A stretch of DNA of 21,756 bases from a virus. A model generated the notes under the pieces. That model was not told the origin of the DNA. It made no database searches and saw only the letters and a program-made list of their open reading frames with translations. Where the stretch lies: the IMG/VR virus record IMGVR_UViG_3300034063_000536, positions 1 to 21,756 of that record. One strand, given 5' to 3'. The translations under genes were made by a program, and so were the position numbers. Each line of letters begins with the position of its first letter. The first letter of the stretch is position 1. Below, one piece after another: positions 10,496-18,120 of this stretch.

Positions 10496-10798
10496 TCAAT
10501 ATATACTTATCAATCTAACTAGTGCAATGCTATCTATAGCGACTAATAATAAGTAATTAGCTACCATACCTGTGCTGCGTCTAGTCCAAGCAGCCCAGCA
10601 AAATATTGCACATTGTAGTATAAACAACGGATATAGAATTAAGAATGGTGGATTAGGAACAGTAATAGCCATTGTTAGGCTACAGCCTATACTCATAACC
10701 CATGCTGAGATTTCTAGTACAAATCTTAAAGGCCACTCTTTGAAATCGTTCTTTGCCCAGTTGTAAATGTTTATAAATGTATTTGAAAGTTGATCCAT
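10496..10798 (-). CDS. Small membrane protein, three transmembrane segments
   Basis: A 100-residue protein with a polar amphipathic start and three hydrophobic stretches at about 25-47, 51-70 and 77-96, separated by a Pro-rich turn (PNPPF) and a basic loop (WTRRS). This suggests an inner-membrane protein with the basic loop toward the cytoplasm. No enzyme motif is seen. Its ATG overlaps the stop of the DsbA-like gene by one base (TAATG), so the two are translated together. Possible roles include membrane changes, lysis timing or anchoring of replication; none is supported directly. Confidence 0.75.
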   Translation of the reverse strand: MDQLSNTFINIYNWAKNDFKEWPLRFVLEISAWVMSIGCSLTMAITVPNPPFLILYPLFILQCAIFCWAAWTRRSTGMVANYLLLVAIDSIALVRLISIY

Positions 10799-11070
10799 TA
10801 ATCATCTTTGCGTATATTTGCATGACCACTGATATCAACAATAGTTTCAAGGTCATCAAACTCACGGAATACCTGATCCCATTGATCTTTAAGTGCAATA
10901 CGAATTGCTTTGCGAATAACACTAGGTTTAACATCTAGTTCTTCTGCTACTGCTTTAATGGTTTCGTTCAATCCTTCAGTAAGGTCTTGAATTTCCTGCA
11001 TTACAGTAACGCCCTCAGAAACAATTTGTTTAATTTTAGCCTGCTCTGGGGCACCATATGATTTGCTCAT
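10798..11070 (-). CDS. dsbA: DsbA-like double-stranded DNA-binding protein
   Basis: A 90-residue all-helical protein of the same length and plan as T4 DsbA (89 residues), a small protein that binds DNA at T4 late promoters. A first helix (AKIKQIVSEGVTVMQEIQDL) is followed by LNETIKAVAEELDVKPSVIRKAIRIALKD, which resembles a helix-turn-helix, and FREFDDLETIVDI near the end. Identity at residue level with T4 is low, so the call rests on length, helical pattern and T4-like context. It has its own sigma70-type promoter (11090-11118) and a strong AAAGGAG ribosome binding site (11078-11084), and is coupled to the membrane protein gene downstream. Confidence 0.6.
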   Translation of the reverse strand: MSKSYGAPEQAKIKQIVSEGVTVMQEIQDLTEGLNETIKAVAEELDVKPSVIRKAIRIALKDQWDQVFREFDDLETIVDISGHANIRKDD

Positions 11071-11745: not shown

Positions 11746-11951
11746 GTCTTCTCTATTGCGTGTTTCCTAGCAGACCATGCCATTTGAACTTTTTTCTCAG
11801 GCGTTTTATTTTTAAATTGATGATATTTATTTGGGTCAGCATCTAAAAAAGTTTGTTCCCATTGATCAAGAGGTACCTGTGGTGTTAGTTTAACAGCCGG
11901 CTTTTTCGGAGCAGGAGGTTGGGCCGGTTGTTCGGCCTCCTGCTCTTTTAC
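11742..11951 (-). CDS. -1 frameshift extension of the 809-aa protein (69 aa)
   Basis: The -1 frame after the 809-aa gene encodes 69 more residues to TGA at 11742. It starts with a Pro/Ala/Gln/Lys linker (about the first 28 residues) and ends with a folded-looking part containing VPLDQWEQTFLDADPNKY and MAWSARKHAIEKT. There is no ATG, GTG or TTG in frame between the preceding stop in this frame (12 codons before the slippery site) and a Met 57 codons in; only an ATT would serve as a separate start. It is reached by slipping at A AAA AAG, giving an 878-residue fusion. Its stop overlaps the next gene's ATG. Those points make it coding and not chance. Confidence 0.75.
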   Translation of the reverse strand, partial: VKEQEAEQPAQPPAPKKPAVKLTPQVPLDQWEQTFLDADPNKYHQFKNKTPEKKVQMAWSARKHAIEKT

Positions 11952-11957
11952 TTTTTT
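11892..11957 (-). promoter_or_regulatory. Programmed -1 ribosomal frameshift signal with stem-loop/pseudoknot
   Basis: On the minus strand the slippery heptamer A AAA AAG (11951-11957) is in the correct phase (CTA AAA AAG TAA). After a 5-base spacer (TAAAA) comes a perfect 10-bp stem: GAGCAGGAGG (11936-11945) with CCTCCTGCTC (11909-11918). The 17-base loop contains AACAACCGGC (11923-11932), which can pair at 9 of 10 positions with GCCGGCTGTT (11892-11901), giving an H-type pseudoknot with a 3-base first loop and 7-base last loop. These are the three parts of known -1 frameshift sites. Confidence 0.78.
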
Positions 11958-14377
11958 AGTTTTGACTCTAATGCTGTAGTTAAATGATTAAAATAGTTGT
12001 CCTCATTTGTTGGAACACAATTAGGAACAGTTTTTCCATTTTTCTTTTTAGTTCCTACAGGTTTGTAGCCTTTCCAACAAGGATTATCTTTAGGATCTCT
12101 TAATCCCTCTTCTACATCTTCTTCTGCACTTTTATTAGCGTTTTTAAATTTTGCCGGCATCATAGACGCCATTTTTTGAGCAGTTAGTTTATCGGACATA
12201 TTGCTTTTATGTAATCTTGCCTTATTAGATAAACCTACATAATGATGAGATGCTTTATCATATTGGTCCATTTTACTCAGTCTGTCAGGAGCAAGACTTT
12301 GTTGCCATGGCATTGCTGCGATACGATCCTTTTCGGCCCTAAACATACTTGCTCTTTGACTTGCTGCGTCTCGAGTTCTATTCAAAAGATCTGTAGATAG
12401 TTCATTTACGGGATTTTCTGCAACACCTTGCTTACCGGCATCTAATCCTTTGCCGTATAATGTCACGGCTTTACCGCCTACACCATATGGAGGATTCATT
12501 ACAGTACCTTGTTTGCCGTGTTCGACGCCAATAGCATACCAATCAATATTAGCAGCACCACCGGCCTTTTGTGCTTCACGCTTCCAGAATGATAAAGAAT
12601 CCAAGCCTTCCGCCACATTATCCCTAGCGTATTGGTCCTTCATACTGTTATAGTAATCATATATGTCTTTGTAACCATTCTTTTTAGCAGCACGTTCTAG
12701 AATACCACCAATTTTGTGATCAGCAATGCCCTGCTTTCTGAACCATGGCAGTAACCAATCGATCGGGTCACCGTCTGGGAAAATTTGACCAACAACATCT
12801 TCAACCTTGCGCCATACATCATCTAATGTTAGTTTAGGCGCTGTTGGTTTTGGTTGACGAAACATGTCCTTCATTGTAAATGAGTTTTCTTTTGGTGGCA
12901 ATTCTTTTCCAGTGCGTGGATCTAACTTAGCGCCGGTCTTTGCATTAATAGTGAATTTACCTTCCGCCAGTCCGTGTTGATCCAACATATTCGGTAAGCC
13001 CTGTGCCTTACGAGCCATATGGCGGGCCCAATCTACTTTATCGTCGTCCACGACATCAACTAACTCTGCCATCTTCTTTGCGATTAAGTTGTTTGCTGTT
13101 GATGGCTTGTACCTTTTCATATTCAACTTTTTAGCAACACTAAGATAAAGTTGTAAATCATTGCTGCCATCGCCACCATTAAAATCGCCCTGAGCAAATT
13201 CGTTTAAGGAGCCTTCCGCCACACCTTTTTGTGCAATTTTACTAGTTGCTCTAGCAATGCCGCTGGCACGTTTTTCTGCACGTTTGTTTAACCAATCTGC
13301 TTCATCGCTCCAGTCTGAACCTTTTTTTAGTTCACCGTGTGATATGTGCTGTATGGCTTTGTCTCTTGCAGATCTTGAATCACGTTGATCGTCGCCTACT
13401 TCACGACCTGCTGCTTTTGAATATGCACGTAATGTATCTTTGCTTAATTCATTTACAGGAGCTTCTGCTACACTACCTACTTTATTGAATAATTGTTGAA
13501 ACTTATCATTACCTAGAACAGACATCATTTTACTATAGTCGTCTTTACGGAATGTTATTTTATTTCCTTGAACTTTAGTATCTCTAGATAATTTATTTTG
13601 AGATATTAAACCTTGAACTAATCTTTGTCCGTCTGAACTTGCTTGAACAGTAACCATACCTGTACTAGCAATACCACGACTTGATCCGCCTACCTGTGCT
13701 TTAGCAGGATCTCTGTTGATCCTCTTTCCATCTGGTCCGATACCAATTACTTTACCGCCAGTTTTTGCTTCAGGTTCTTCTTCATCGCCGCCTGTATATA
13801 GTTCTAATCTTTCGTCTCTATCAGCATAATCTATAATGTCACGTAGTTGTCCTGTAAATTGATTAGGAATATCTAAAACAATTTTTTCTACGCCGATAAA
13901 GTCTTTATCGTTTAATATTTTTCTAATATGAGAAATTACATCTGATGCTTCGTCGGCAGCAAATGGTTTAATTTTAGCATTAGCAACAGTTACATCTTTA
14001 GGAGTTGTGCCAAAACCTCCATATGCTAACACCATCATTTCGTCATTTGGCAAACGTTTACCTCTAAATTTAAGGAACATTTGTCCACTCGGAGTTTCTA
14101 ATTCATAAAGTTTTTTTTCGTCTCTAGATTTTTGTCTTTGATTAGATTGATGTTTTTGTGTTCCACGTCCTTGTGTGCTTCCCATACCTACTGGATTACG
14201 TGGTTTTGAAACAGGAACACTTACTTTATCTTTAAGTTCCGATAATCGTCGTTGTAACATTTTTACACTACCGGGAGCAGTAGCAACATCGCTTGCACTA
14301 GTTGCACCTGCACTTGCAGTTTCTAATACATAACGAGTTTCGTTTTTAATTTTAACTTTTTTAAATTCGTTGTTCAT
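11948..14377 (-). CDS. Probable head polyprotein with repeated prohead-protease-like sites
   Basis: An 809-residue modular protein. Six short sites recur: SVAE/A (E305), GVAE/G (E388), GLAE/G (E472), NVAE/G (E590), GVAE/N (E654) and DVEE/G (E757). T4 prohead protease cuts after Glu in L/I-x-E before small residues, so these look like cleavage sites that would release pieces of about 50-120 residues plus an N-terminal 305. Two pieces begin alike (PVNELSKD at 307 and PVNELSTD at 656), showing module duplication. The last piece has a Cys pair in NPCWKGYKPVG and VPNCVPT, a motif I recall from marine phage proteins. Most modules are basic and helical. The gene ends on a -1 frameshift signal. Its start overlaps the previous stop as ATGA. 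Exact function unknown; a packaged internal protein is the best guess. Confidence 0.75.
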   Translation of the reverse strand: MNNEFKKVKIKNETRYVLETASAGATSASDVATAPGSVKMLQRRLSELKDKVSVPVSKPRNPVGMGSTQGRGTQKHQSNQRQKSRDEKKLYELETPSGQMFLKFRGKRLPNDEMMVLAYGGFGTTPKDVTVANAKIKPFAADEASDVISHIRKILNDKDFIGVEKIVLDIPNQFTGQLRDIIDYADRDERLELYTGGDEEEPEAKTGGKVIGIGPDGKRINRDPAKAQVGGSSRGIASTGMVTVQASSDGQRLVQGLISQNKLSRDTKVQGNKITFRKDDYSKMMSVLGNDKFQQLFNKVGSVAEAPVNELSKDTLRAYSKAAGREVGDDQRDSRSARDKAIQHISHGELKKGSDWSDEADWLNKRAEKRASGIARATSKIAQKGVAEGSLNEFAQGDFNGGDGSNDLQLYLSVAKKLNMKRYKPSTANNLIAKKMAELVDVVDDDKVDWARHMARKAQGLPNMLDQHGLAEGKFTINAKTGAKLDPRTGKELPPKENSFTMKDMFRQPKPTAPKLTLDDVWRKVEDVVGQIFPDGDPIDWLLPWFRKQGIADHKIGGILERAAKKNGYKDIYDYYNSMKDQYARDNVAEGLDSLSFWKREAQKAGGAANIDWYAIGVEHGKQGTVMNPPYGVGGKAVTLYGKGLDAGKQGVAENPVNELSTDLLNRTRDAASQRASMFRAEKDRIAAMPWQQSLAPDRLSKMDQYDKASHHYVGLSNKARLHKSNMSDKLTAQKMASMMPAKFKNANKSAEEDVEEGLRDPKDNPCWKGYKPVGTKKKNGKTVPNCVPTNEDNYFNHLTTALESKLKK

Positions 14378-14742
14378 TTTGTTTTATTCCAATTTGCTAC
14401 AGGGCTTACTGTGTAAGTATCGTCAGTTTCTCTACTACGCATATCGCCGTGGTTTACATCATTTACCTTAACACCTGCTGCTTTTGCAGCAACATTGATC
14501 ATATCTTGTTCTAATTGACTATATGGATGTAGTGTTTTCCATCTACCGACCCAACTTTCTTCGTCCATTTCTGGAACATTAACTCCGTCACAGGCAGCAA
14601 GAGCTAGACCTAATCTATATAATTTATAATCGCTGCTCCATCTGTCAGCGTCAGTATATTTGTTAACACCGCGAGTTGGGTTTTGTTGACGTTTAGTCAT
14701 CTTACCGCCTTTACGTTCAACAATAAATTCGTTTGCTCTCAT
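14374..14742 (-). CDS. Putative internal head protein with capsid-targeting-like N-terminus
   Basis: A 122-residue basic protein. It starts MRANEFIVE/R, which resembles the capsid-targeting peptide of T4 internal proteins (MKTYQEFIAE, cut after Glu), with I-V-E as the cleavage triplet. After it come GKMTKRQQNPTRGVNKY, a helical core with YRLGLALAACDG and SWVGRWKTLHPYSQLEQDMINVAAKAAGV, and a tail DTYTVSPVANWNK. I recall this module from marine T4-like phages, alone or inside long polyproteins like the neighbouring 809-aa product. It couples by ATGA to that gene and follows the Dps-like gene by one base. Confidence 0.7.
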   Translation of the reverse strand: MRANEFIVERKGGKMTKRQQNPTRGVNKYTDADRWSSDYKLYRLGLALAACDGVNVPEMDEESWVGRWKTLHPYSQLEQDMINVAAKAAGVKVNDVNHGDMRSRETDDTYTVSPVANWNKTK

Positions 14743-14743
14743 G

Positions 14744-15184
14744 TTAACCTTTCATGCTTGCACGTAGCATCCAACCGTGTTTTCTATGTGCATCCATGCG
14801 GCCAGCAACAAAGTCACTAAATCCATGCTCTCCGCTTGATTCACTAAGGTCAAATAACTTTTTTAAAATCATTACCATTTTTTCGTTATCTAATAAAAGT
14901 TCTTTAACCATTGCATCTTTAGGCAATATTTGTGTTTCATCTTCTACTTTAGTTAACATATCAAATCTAGCATAGCTAGCTGGAACATATGCACCTAAAC
15001 TACGAATTTTTTCTGCAAAATCGTCAATGCTCGAATAAACTTCTTCGTATATTTTGCCAAATAGGTCGTGGTATTGTAAAAAATCTGAGCCTTCAACGTT
15101 CCAATGAAACCCGTGAGCTTTTACATAAAAGCTGAATTCACTTGCAAATGCTATTTTGGCCAATTGTTGTAATTGTTCGTTCAT
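14744..15184 (-). CDS. dps: Dps/ferritin-like protein
   Basis: A 146-residue protein of the Dps family, four-helix proteins that form 12-mers, oxidise and store iron, and protect DNA. The ferroxidase ligands known from E. coli Dps align by spacing: His27 in AHGFHWNVEG, His39 in QYHDLF, Asp54 and Glu58 in SSIDDFAEKI; one acidic ligand (Asp67 in E. coli) is Gly43 here. LGAYVPAS follows as in the family. There is no Lys-rich N-terminal tail, so DNA binding of the classic kind is not expected. It lies in the probable head-protein block, 11 bases after the 974-aa gene. No clear Shine-Dalgarno sequence is seen. It could protect phage DNA from oxidative damage or be packaged. Confidence 0.88.
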   Translation of the reverse strand: MNEQLQQLAKIAFASEFSFYVKAHGFHWNVEGSDFLQYHDLFGKIYEEVYSSIDDFAEKIRSLGAYVPASYARFDMLTKVEDETQILPKDAMVKELLLDNEKMVMILKKLFDLSESSGEHGFSDFVAGRMDAHRKHGWMLRASMKG

Positions 15185-15195
15185 GATTATTTTAT

Positions 15196-18120
15196 TTATT
15201 CTGCATCGCCTACCAAATCGCCTGCTTTAGCAGGACGTTTCATACTACCTTTTAAATGTGCTGAAGGTCCTAGTTTATGTTTATTAGATCCTGCAAATGC
15301 ACTTTTTGGTAACATTTTTTCTTTTATATTATTTTTTGGCCTAATTAATGCGTTTAATAAACGTTCTTGTGTTTTAACAGGGTTAGCTGAAGGTAATCCC
15401 ATTCCTTTTCTAGTTACATCCATTAAATGTTTAATCCAATCGACACCTAATTTGTTAACATCGAATGCATTTGACCATACAGCTAACGCTTTTTCGGGCG
15501 GATCGTTTTTTAAACTATTTCTTAGCATAGTACCGCTAATTCCAGTTCCACGAGGAGTAACGCCTAAACTTACTTTAACATGTTCATAGCCTGGAAATTT
15601 ATTTACAGACTTCATTAATGCTGCTGGCATAGGTAATCCTGCTCTATCTTCTCCTACCATGATCACAATATTATCATAACGTGGAGATTTACCAGGTAGT
15701 GGATTGATCAATTCATGCTTTATTTTTTGCATTAATGATCCGCCCTGTATAACTGTGCTAATATTTTGTGCATATTCTGGATATAATTTATGCCAAGTTT
15801 CTACCTTAACGGCAGGAGGTATAGGATCATCTTTTCCTTCAGCGTTACCTATAAACAAATAAGCATCTCCGTTTAATTCTTTAGCCTTGTTGATTGTATA
15901 GTTGAAAAGTTCTTCATGTCCTTTGTGTCCAACAAAGCTTCCTATGGCAACTACTGCTGTTTTGTTAGTATTTTCTCTAGGTTGTTCAGCACGGGCTGCT
16001 GCTTTTGCAGCATTTTTATTTGCTATAATGCCTTTTTGTCTTTCGCTAGTCACTTTAATAGGGCCAAGTCTACTATTAATAACAATGCCTTCGTAGTCTT
16101 GTCCGAGAATATCTTTTCCTATGATATTAGGATCTTCGTCTATTGCTTTTTCTAATGCTATTTGTACAGGCTTTAATTTCTCTTCAACTTCTCTTTTCAA
16201 TTGCAAACTAGCTCTATCTCGTTTTCCGCTAGTATCGCTTACAATTCTTTTTAGTTCTTCTAAATTTTCTAATGGATTAATGATTTCAGTTACATCTAGG
16301 CCTTCTTTTTGTTTTAATTGATTGCTCATAAACATAACAGAGCCGTTCTGACCTAGGTTAGACAATGTTTGTATTATTTTATTTGATTCCGGAATATCTT
16401 CGCCGGTGCTAGCTTGAACAATACGGAAAGGAACTAATACTAAATCTACTCCTTGCGGTAATTGATCGTATTCTATACCTACAAATTTTAATTTACCTTC
16501 TTGAGTTTGAGTAGCAAATGGTAAAAATAAAACTTCGCAAGTTACTTGTTTATCTAATAAAAAATCTTCTCCTAGTGCACTATCGACAACTTTGATAGCA
16601 TTCATTGTTTCGTTAAAAAGTTTATCAAAGTTTGCTGCACGTCCTAATATTTCTGGATCAGTTGTGCCTTTTTCTTGATGATATTTTAAGAAACCTGCTT
16701 GGTATCTAGGTTCAGTTCTACTAGTTCCCATGAAGGGCTGGCCGTCTGCATTTTTTCCAAAACGTCCACCGAATCCGTCTATTTTTACATTTAATGGAAT
16801 ATTCTGTAAGCGAAATCGTCCGCCTTCACTTCTTAGTTCATCAACCAGATCTAAAAAGTCTGCAGGTTTCAAATCACGCAAATGGGGCATTCCTTTACGC
16901 AATTGTGCTTTTACTTCTGCTTCTGTTACAGGCCCGGTTTGATTTTTAAATCCACTAGCATAATCTTGAATCGTACTGTTTAGTGTTGCAGGTGGTGCTA
17001 TACCTAATATTTTGTACATAGTATTAACAGCGGCATTTTTTTCTTTTAAATCTTGTTCTGCACTATCTTTATACAAACGTTGAGCACCTTTGCCAAATAC
17101 AATGTCAATGAATGAATCAGTAACAACCTGTTGTTCTTGTGGATCTAAATAATCTTTCATTAGTTCTACAATACCTGTAAAACTCCAAAATTTTGATTCC
17201 AATGCTTTTACCTGTGCTAGAGGTAATCTATCTCCAAAAATAGTTGTAAATATTTTTGATATATCTTGTTCGTATCCTGAAGTAGGTAATTCTGTATACA
17301 CAGGTAAATTATCTTTAATTTCCTGTGCACCTGTAGTTGGATCTATTACAGGAGTATATTTTGGTCTTAGTCCGCCGCCCTCTTTTGATTTAACAGCGAA
17401 GCTGATCATATTATCAGTTGTGGGCTTTTCTGTAGTTTTTCTTGCACCTATTTTTCTTAGTAAGAATGTTTTTTGTGTTAACCCACTTAACGAACGGATA
17501 ATCCATTTGTGAAATACACCTTTGATCCCTTGGCTCAAATCATTCCACTCTGAGCTTGCTGAGAACTGAGCCCACTTTGTAGGAGAACCTTTTTGGAACG
17601 GTTTAAGTTCTAAGTCTATTTGTATTGTAATAGGAGTTTCGTTACCATTCTGATCAGTTACAACGATATCTGGAAACTTCCATAATGTTAATACTTGTGC
17701 AGGATCTTTAGCATCCATTCCTGCAAATTGTGCAGGTCCGATTTGAGAACCGGGTGGTAAATTTCCTAACCAGTTACGAACTTGATCGGCCATGTTTTGA
17801 TCAACTTGTGTATCAATATCTCCTACAGTTCTTTTTACATTAGCAAAGTCAGCATCTGAAATTTCTAATCTATTAAAAAAATGAAATGAAGAGCCAGCAA
17901 GGAATTTTTTACTTGAAAGTAAACTAGGCATCCACAATGGTACACCGTTGTTTATTTTTTTAAATTCTGTGTTAATAGCAGTCAGTGCTGAGTCTATAAT
18001 AGGAACAATCTGTGCTCTTTTGCTGCTATCTATTCTGTTTGCTGCAACATCACCGATTTGTAAGTTACCGCCTTCGGATAAAGTAAATCTATTTTTTTTA
18101 AATAATTCGAGTAGTCGCAC
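15196..18120 (-). CDS. Multi-domain nucleotidyltransferase (pol-beta-like, KxDG ligase-like, HxGH) with head-targeting-like N-terminus
   Basis: A 974-residue protein starting at GTG 18120 with TTAGGA (18128-18133) before it. MRLLELFKKNRFTLSE/GG resembles the T4 Alt targeting peptide, with L-S-E (16) as a possible prohead-protease cut. Next is a pol-beta-type pattern: LAGSS (G76, S77), VGDIDTQVD (D101, D103) and a later acidic strand ITIQIDLEL (D169). The middle has covalent nucleotidyltransferase motifs: NVKIDGFGGRFG (K446, KxDG), CEVLFLP (E529), DYEGIVINS (E677) and GPIKV (K689). The C-terminal part has an NMNAT/cytidylyltransferase fold: AIGSFVGHKGHEEL (H732, H735) and ISGTMLRN (861-868). 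The tail is basic. It may be a packaged, injected enzyme acting on NAD, RNA ends or host proteins; substrate unknown. The HxGH and KxDG calls are firm, the pol-beta call moderate. Confidence 0.82.
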   Translation of the reverse strand: MRLLELFKKNRFTLSEGGNLQIGDVAANRIDSSKRAQIVPIIDSALTAINTEFKKINNGVPLWMPSLLSSKKFLAGSSFHFFNRLEISDADFANVKRTVGDIDTQVDQNMADQVRNWLGNLPPGSQIGPAQFAGMDAKDPAQVLTLWKFPDIVVTDQNGNETPITIQIDLELKPFQKGSPTKWAQFSASSEWNDLSQGIKGVFHKWIIRSLSGLTQKTFLLRKIGARKTTEKPTTDNMISFAVKSKEGGGLRPKYTPVIDPTTGAQEIKDNLPVYTELPTSGYEQDISKIFTTIFGDRLPLAQVKALESKFWSFTGIVELMKDYLDPQEQQVVTDSFIDIVFGKGAQRLYKDSAEQDLKEKNAAVNTMYKILGIAPPATLNSTIQDYASGFKNQTGPVTEAEVKAQLRKGMPHLRDLKPADFLDLVDELRSEGGRFRLQNIPLNVKIDGFGGRFGKNADGQPFMGTSRTEPRYQAGFLKYHQEKGTTDPEILGRAANFDKLFNETMNAIKVVDSALGEDFLLDKQVTCEVLFLPFATQTQEGKLKFVGIEYDQLPQGVDLVLVPFRIVQASTGEDIPESNKIIQTLSNLGQNGSVMFMSNQLKQKEGLDVTEIINPLENLEELKRIVSDTSGKRDRASLQLKREVEEKLKPVQIALEKAIDEDPNIIGKDILGQDYEGIVINSRLGPIKVTSERQKGIIANKNAAKAAARAEQPRENTNKTAVVAIGSFVGHKGHEELFNYTINKAKELNGDAYLFIGNAEGKDDPIPPAVKVETWHKLYPEYAQNISTVIQGGSLMQKIKHELINPLPGKSPRYDNIVIMVGEDRAGLPMPAALMKSVNKFPGYEHVKVSLGVTPRGTGISGTMLRNSLKNDPPEKALAVWSNAFDVNKLGVDWIKHLMDVTRKGMGLPSANPVKTQERLLNALIRPKNNIKEKMLPKSAFAGSNKHKLGPSAHLKGSMKRPAKAGDLVGDAE

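Follow-up and report, generated by a model that had tools for sequence, protein, structure and literature searches.

The heads of T4-type phages contain a few internal proteins, each encoded by its own gene, and at least one of these (IPI) disables a host defence when it enters the cell. In T4, each gene gives one protein that receives one N-terminal cut, Alt being cut at its C-terminus as well. The T4 prohead protease gp21 cuts after L/I-x-E, and a 10-residue capsid-targeting sequence (CTS) brings the internal proteins into the head and is then cut off (PMC9026906). The same protease cuts gp22, gp67 and gp68 into many fragments that are mostly removed (PMC9026906, PMC5694885). In phages phiKZ and SPN3US, a protease related to gp21 cleaves large virion proteins behind Glu residues, and the propeptides contain redundant sites (PMC9026906, PMC10052503).

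The DNA analysed here (the window) is the 21,756-nt stretch of the viral record IMGVR_UViG_3300034063_000536, from an uncultured phage related to T4. One of its genes, with an ORF of 809 codons, is proposed, at a probability of about 0.7, to encode a polyprotein of head cargo modules that would be cut by a gp21-like S77 protease at V/L-x-E linkers and swapped in frame. Like T4 IPI, IPII, IPIII and Alt, the protein has an N-terminal pro-segment ending in hydrophobic-x-Glu, its relatives encode an S77 protease and gp23, and the neighbouring genes have CTS-like N-termini (M[KR]xxEF[ILV]xE); unlike in T4, a single gene here joins numerous unrelated modules, has sites inside the chain and carries a linker conserved as DNA. 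With T4 gp22, gp67 and gp68 it shares several Glu sites in one chain (cut in the T4 prohead, predicted here), but those proteins are scaffold that is broken down and mostly cleared, whereas here conserved modules are shuffled between phages and the sites are specific to module boundaries. The predicted cuts after Glu by a gp21-related protease recall the inner-body and ejection proteins of phiKZ and SPN3US, although the phiKZ motif is S/A-x-E and cutting there strips off propeptides instead of releasing modules in series. As in viral polyproteins, one ORF would give several proteins through sites of a virus-encoded protease; in contrast to these in general, the carrier is a tailed dsDNA phage and module content differs between close relatives. 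Finally, unrelated payloads divided by a conserved short DNA word resemble integron-like cassette arrays. Here, by contrast, the modules are fused in frame into one protein, and general phage enzymes are assumed to carry out the recombination. No description of the linker sequence, or of phage polyproteins of this kind, was found in the open literature searched; what is new here is that the linker is conserved also as DNA.

The 809-aa ORF and its predicted cleavage sites

The ORF lies between a Dps-like gene and a DNA polymerase gene (coordinates of its parts and of two neighbours are given in Table 1). The original prediction had placed six [VL]-x-E/[GNA] sites in it, and all were found at the residues named: SVAE305/A, GVAE388/G, GLAE472/G, NVAE590/G, GVAE654/N and DVEE757/G, with V at P3 in five and L in one. 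They represent every [VLI]xE[GNA] match in the protein, against 1.5 expected, and none of 500 residue shuffles reached six. The narrower pattern [VLI]AE[GNA] occurred five times (0.11 expected), while every other gene of the window had one match at most and none was enriched. The sites bound six downstream pieces of 52–118 residues plus a 305-residue head, as had been predicted, and homologies with other proteins often break at them. In total the protein has 13 [VLI]xE sites, including three that had been overlooked five residues beyond predicted cuts (VNE310, LNE393 and VNE659) and one near the N-terminus (YVLE19/TASAGATSA). Modules A and E have a common start, PVNELSxDxL. A Pfam scan of the 809-aa protein gave no significant match.

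Table 1. Coordinates, in the window, of the 809-aa ORF, its predicted pieces and linkers, and two neighbouring genes
Feature	Coordinates	Strand	Remarks
809-aa modular polyprotein ORF (predicted), ATG to stop	11948..14377	minus	stop codon included
N-terminal segment, residues 1–19 (MNNEFKKVKIKNETRYVLE)	14321..14377	minus	predicted targeting/pro-segment, predicted cut after E19; MCP-like in alignment
Head piece, residues 1–305	13463..14377	minus	N-terminal part conserved in L001, L005, L082, L108, L121
Module A, residues 306–388, APVNELSKDTL...	13214..13462	minus	
Module B, residues 389–472, GSLNEFAQGDF...	12962..13213	minus	
Module C, residues 473–590	12608..12961	minus	predicted four-helix region
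Module D, residues 591–654, GLDSLSFWKREA...	12416..12607	minus	
Module E, residues 655–757, NPVNELSTDLL...	12107..12415	minus	
Module F, residues 758–809, GLRDPKDNPCWKGYKPVGTKKKNGKTVPNCVP...	11951..12106	minus	
Linker GVAE388/G	13211..13225	minus	canonical DNA GGTGTGGCGGAAGGC
Linker LAE472/G	12959..12970	minus	near-canonical DNA CTGGCGGAAGGT
Linker VAE590/G	12605..12616	minus	canonical core DNA GTGGCGGAAGGC
Upstream 122-aa gene	14374..14742	minus	T4-CTS-like N-terminus MRANEFIVE/RKGGKM
974-aa gene	15196..18120	minus	CTS-like N-terminus MRLLELFKKNRFTLSE/GGN; several fused regions including nucleotidyltransferase-like (phrog_3041, E 5.6e-10)

A frameshift had also been suggested to give the last piece a second form. 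This was not supported: no slippery heptamer is present there, stops occur after 8 and 21 codons in the two alternative frames, and it is the in-frame C-terminus that is conserved, in L003. Initiation of translation within the gene, at the SD-like GGAAGG in the linker, was considered and is not favoured, the pieces having no start codon a few bases on.

Modules recur in other orders and in other genes

A search of IMG/VR with the 809-aa protein returned five loci whose homologous or related genes were strings of differing modules, with (E/K)QGVAE/G between the modules in most. A degenerate search for EQGVAEG found at least 120 stretches, and in the loci fetched 113 distinct ORFs had two linkers or more; 95 representatives were taken from these. 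Their 199 linker-to-linker modules fell into 165 families, 137 of them singletons. Module order was changed in many pairs of representatives. Local protein alignments between them had starts peaking 3–6 residues before a predicted cut (23% versus 6% at random) and ends peaking 0–2 residues past it (21% versus 6%). Comparing module order in related phages, as the original prediction proposed, likewise found the window's modules in other orders and genes. Homologues of module B with 81–91% identity occur in other genes or orders in L133/L001, L135, L136 and L137; in L001/L004 the module is part of an 865-aa cytidylyltransferase-type gene and not of the polyprotein homologue. Module C appears in many architectures, in proteins that begin with MKTTEFIVE, MKISNLTE, MFLGSLFE, MNSKQFLKE or MPKNNES, among others, and module F is found widely among cyanophages and other phages of T4 type.

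A component of the prohead core or scaffold would also carry many Glu sites. On that explanation the protein would resemble T4 gp22, gp67 and gp68, which gp21 cuts and which are mostly removed (PMC9026906, PMC5694885), and its fragments would be waste leaving the head rather than cargo; the total of 13 [VLI]xE sites is in keeping with it. However, the full-motif sites lie at module boundaries and not throughout the chain, and the modules are conserved families, one of them predicted to be folded, found on many unrelated genes that include enzyme genes. Some also stand free in other phages: the PGLWANI module makes up most of a 55–56-aa protein of Limnohabitans phage DC33 and forms the N-terminal part of a 170–171-aa protein in S-RIP2. 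The position of the gene, outside the protease–scaffold–MCP cluster in a relative (G005, see below), also argues against a core component, which we regard as quite unlikely.

Strings of modules without VAE/G linkers were seen in Kyanoviridae cyanophages (L171 250–2025, L174 2959–3948 and L176 757–2238), and the mini-modules CWxGY, KVWPSAYASG and RRxSFCARM are common to these strings and the linker phages.

Modules stand behind N-terminal and internal sites alike

The N-terminus of the predicted polyprotein, YVLE/TASAGATSASDVAT, looks like the region where the major capsid protein (MCP) is presumably cleaved, HLAE/SATAGATSAGNVAT; in an alignment of seven MCP N-termini with those of the window protein and of five relatives, E, G and T were invariant. 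The pro-segment ending at YVLE19 does not have the 10-residue T4 CTS form, which the neighbouring genes do resemble. CTS-like N-termini, M[KR]xx(E)F[ILV]xE, were found in 64 ORFs of the loci, with I at P3 in 34, L in 21 and V in nine. Of the 50 ORFs with three or more linkers whose start codon could be seen, 25 had hydrophobic-x-Glu near the N-terminus; among linker-free ORFs the figure was 210 of 897 (Fisher p = 8e-5).

Several modules were located behind a CTS-like N-terminus in one phage and behind a linker in another. The PGLWANI module follows MRFTEFISE/ in L115 and GVAE/ in L107; YPFN follows MKSCEFITE/ in L150 and GVGE/ in L002; CPxCGG follows MIIDDLFE/ in L020 and GVAE/ in L030; and CWxGY follows MKATEFIIE/ in L048, MRYKEILE/ in L020 and DVEE/ in the window. 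This is what would be expected if the internal linkers are cut in the way that targeting sequences are. It also bears on whether some other protease processes the protein, or whether it is an uncut structural component of the virion, with the sites as flexible hinges. The V at P3, which lies outside the T4 rule, would suit either possibility, as would the annotation 'virion structural protein' borne by the PHROG matches of some carriers, but the likeness of the N-terminus to the MCP cut region and the equivalence of linkers and CTS-like N-termini make both very improbable.

Cytidylyltransferase-like proteins with CTS-like N-termini (FISE/A, IIE/A, VLKE/A and NIFE/A) shortly before the enzyme core were noticed in cyanophages, Methylophilales phages and linker phages (L175 277–1455, L189 1993–3945, L088 and L011 1642–4236); these N-termini suggest a packaged nucleotidyltransferase.

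The linker is conserved as DNA

The codons of the linker word CAAGGTGTGGCGGAAGGC were compared, over 341 linkers, with codon usage in the same genes. The Ala codon was GCG in 88% (8% in the background), and similar skews were recorded for GTG (87% versus 18%), GGT (92% versus 41%), GGC (77% versus 33%), CAA (95% versus 71%) and GAA (90% versus 77%). In an unbiased set of loci, fetched by protein homology only, GGT was used in 34 of 34 linkers, and GTG and GCG in 32 of 34 each. The word was in the QGVAEG frame at 240 of 245 places. The 21-mer RAGCAAGGTGTGGCGGAAGGC had at least 120 occurrences in IMG/VR, versus one in 257 Gb of prokaryote genomes, and DNA stretches shared at an identity of at least 75% ended at linkers in 30–32% of cases, versus 4.6%. 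In the window, linkers 388, 472 and 590 have a canonical or near-canonical DNA core, while 305, 654 and 757 have diverged in DNA and kept V-x-E. Pausing at rare codons was considered as a cause: GCG and GTG are rare, yet the common codons GGT, CAA, GAA and GGC are skewed too, so a cause at the DNA level fits better.

The protein site is also kept where the DNA has changed. Among 88 non-canonical module starts, 55 had hydrophobic-x-Glu at the boundary, versus a background of 18%, and the flanks of module C are usually hydrophobic-x-E even with a diverged linker (SVGE/S, GVKE/G, DLSE/G). In a few linkers the Glu is lost (QGVAAG in L139 and L149), which suggests that an uncut boundary is tolerated. 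Considering the skewed codons together with the boundaries that keep hydrophobic-x-Glu, constraint appears to act at both levels, on the protein as a Glu site and on the DNA as a word that recombination either homogenises or uses. The linker is probably also a joint for in-frame exchange of modules.

The same data could mean that the linker is a DNA recombination joint and nothing more, or a trace of the shared ancestry of inserted cassettes, with QGVAEG a neutral flexible spacer in a protein that stays in one piece. The near invariance of the DNA at synonymous positions, the ends of shared DNA at linkers, the abundance of the 21-mer in linker phages and near absence from prokaryotes, and the linkers lacking Glu all agree with this. 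A spacer of that kind is nevertheless unlikely in view of the hydrophobic-x-Glu kept by diverged linkers and at the flanks of module C, the single reading frame, the swapping of modules with N-terminal CTS-like cut sites, and the S77 protease encoded by all large carriers searched.

Protease and capsid protein genes in relatives

No protease or capsid gene was found on the 21.7-kb window record; the link to a prohead protease is by way of relatives. One of these, G005, is closely related to the window phage, with 77% identity in the polymerase over 544 aa and 85% in the 90-aa protein next to it. Its S77 protease of gp21 type and its capsid protein of gp23 type are encoded at 67–70 kb, and its polyprotein homologue lies at 4–6 kb. 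In two batches, 31 linker-matching records were searched for both genes. All eight linker-bearing contigs of at least 150 kb have them, the S77 protease being gp21-like and the capsid protein gp23-like; the records without a protease or capsid gene are shorter, a few contigs of 40–60 kb having single matches, and are possibly fragments. The MCP N-terminus had LxE followed by a stretch of small residues in 12 of 12 linker phages, G005 included (for example RRHLAE/SATAGATSAGNVAT), and by analogy with T4 this LxE/ is taken as the MCP cut site. The P3 residues do not match, V at most linkers contrasting with L in the MCPs of the same phages. By capsid protein, the nearest cultured group is that of jumbo phages such as GAP32 (78–80% identity over the stretch searched), and no linker match coding for GVAEG was present in GAP32, CBB or Vibrio phage 2.275.O, the closest cultured phages by MCP.

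The shuffled modules bounded by sites, the interchangeability with N-terminal sites, the MCP-like N-terminus and the S77 protease in every large relative searched together point to a polyprotein with T4-type prohead protease sites. That part of the original prediction is thus supported, by inference, from several independent lines of sequence comparison; V at P3 departs from the L/I-x-E of T4.

A model for the cargo polyprotein

In the proposed model, the N-terminal pro-segment (to E19), which resembles the cut region of the MCP, would bring the chain to the core of the prohead. A gp21-like S77 prohead protease would then cut after Glu at the V/L-x-E linkers, releasing about six mini-proteins of 52–118 residues and the head piece. 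The pieces would remain in the head and, like T4 internal proteins, may be ejected with the DNA. In-frame exchange, gain or loss of modules would come about by recombination at the shared word of 17–21 bp, and every exchange would automatically retain a protease site; the outcome would be a rapidly reshuffled set of cargo from one gene. Counting against a cargo polyprotein are the V at P3, the few linkers without Glu, the absence of the linker from the closest cultured relatives, the comparable cyanophage module strings without VAE/G linkers and the low confidence of the model for module B. A broader reading, that a T4-related lineage uses the in-frame DNA adaptor both as recombination joint and as head-protease site to produce combinatorial sets of injected mini-proteins, is put forward tentatively, at slightly less than even odds. 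An exchangeable-cargo polyprotein with a DNA-conserved adaptor that keeps frame and site would explain how phages can quickly vary the proteins they inject. It would also yield a catalogue of more than 100 small candidate proteins that are so far unstudied and whose N-termini are predicted.

Cargo modules and neighbouring genes

Most modules match no known family in Pfam or PHROG. Among 55 proteins scanned there were isolated matches, in one or two members each, to GNAT acetyltransferase, ribosome modulation factor, ParB N-terminal, nucleotidyltransferase and Tat-signal families. AlphaFold2 predicted four helices for module C (residues 46–116 of the piece), with block-mean pLDDT of 84–92 except at the C-terminal end, and a PDB fold search with this model gave no significant match. 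The model for module B was of low confidence, too weak for a fold search.

The 122-aa protein encoded upstream of the predicted polyprotein has a homologue in L012 that starts with MRINELISE/AVVGKM. The CTS-like start of the 974-aa protein, LSE/GGN, recurs as LNE/GGN in L001 and LSE/GGN in L005, and this protein is possibly another internal head protein. A Ferritin/Dps-like gene (window 14744–15184, minus strand; PF00210, E 1.1e-17; phrog_3636) is flanked by genes for predicted internal head proteins. On the polymerase side, a 90-aa protein (window 10798–11070, minus strand; 85% identity to L005) adjoins the DNA polymerase in relatives too; it contains VSE/G and LTE/G, which fit the site rule, possibly by chance.

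Signal-like sequences were seen to start right after a predicted cut, as VAE/DLSRRGFLKGAGAAGALAGAAGG (Tat-like) and VAE/GWKEKAAGAALAGAMAASPTHA, in L060 (5751–8642, minus strand) and L139 (2609–6610, plus strand), and the Pfam family TAT_signal matched two of 55 members. These modules look as if they acted at, or crossed, the host membrane after injection.
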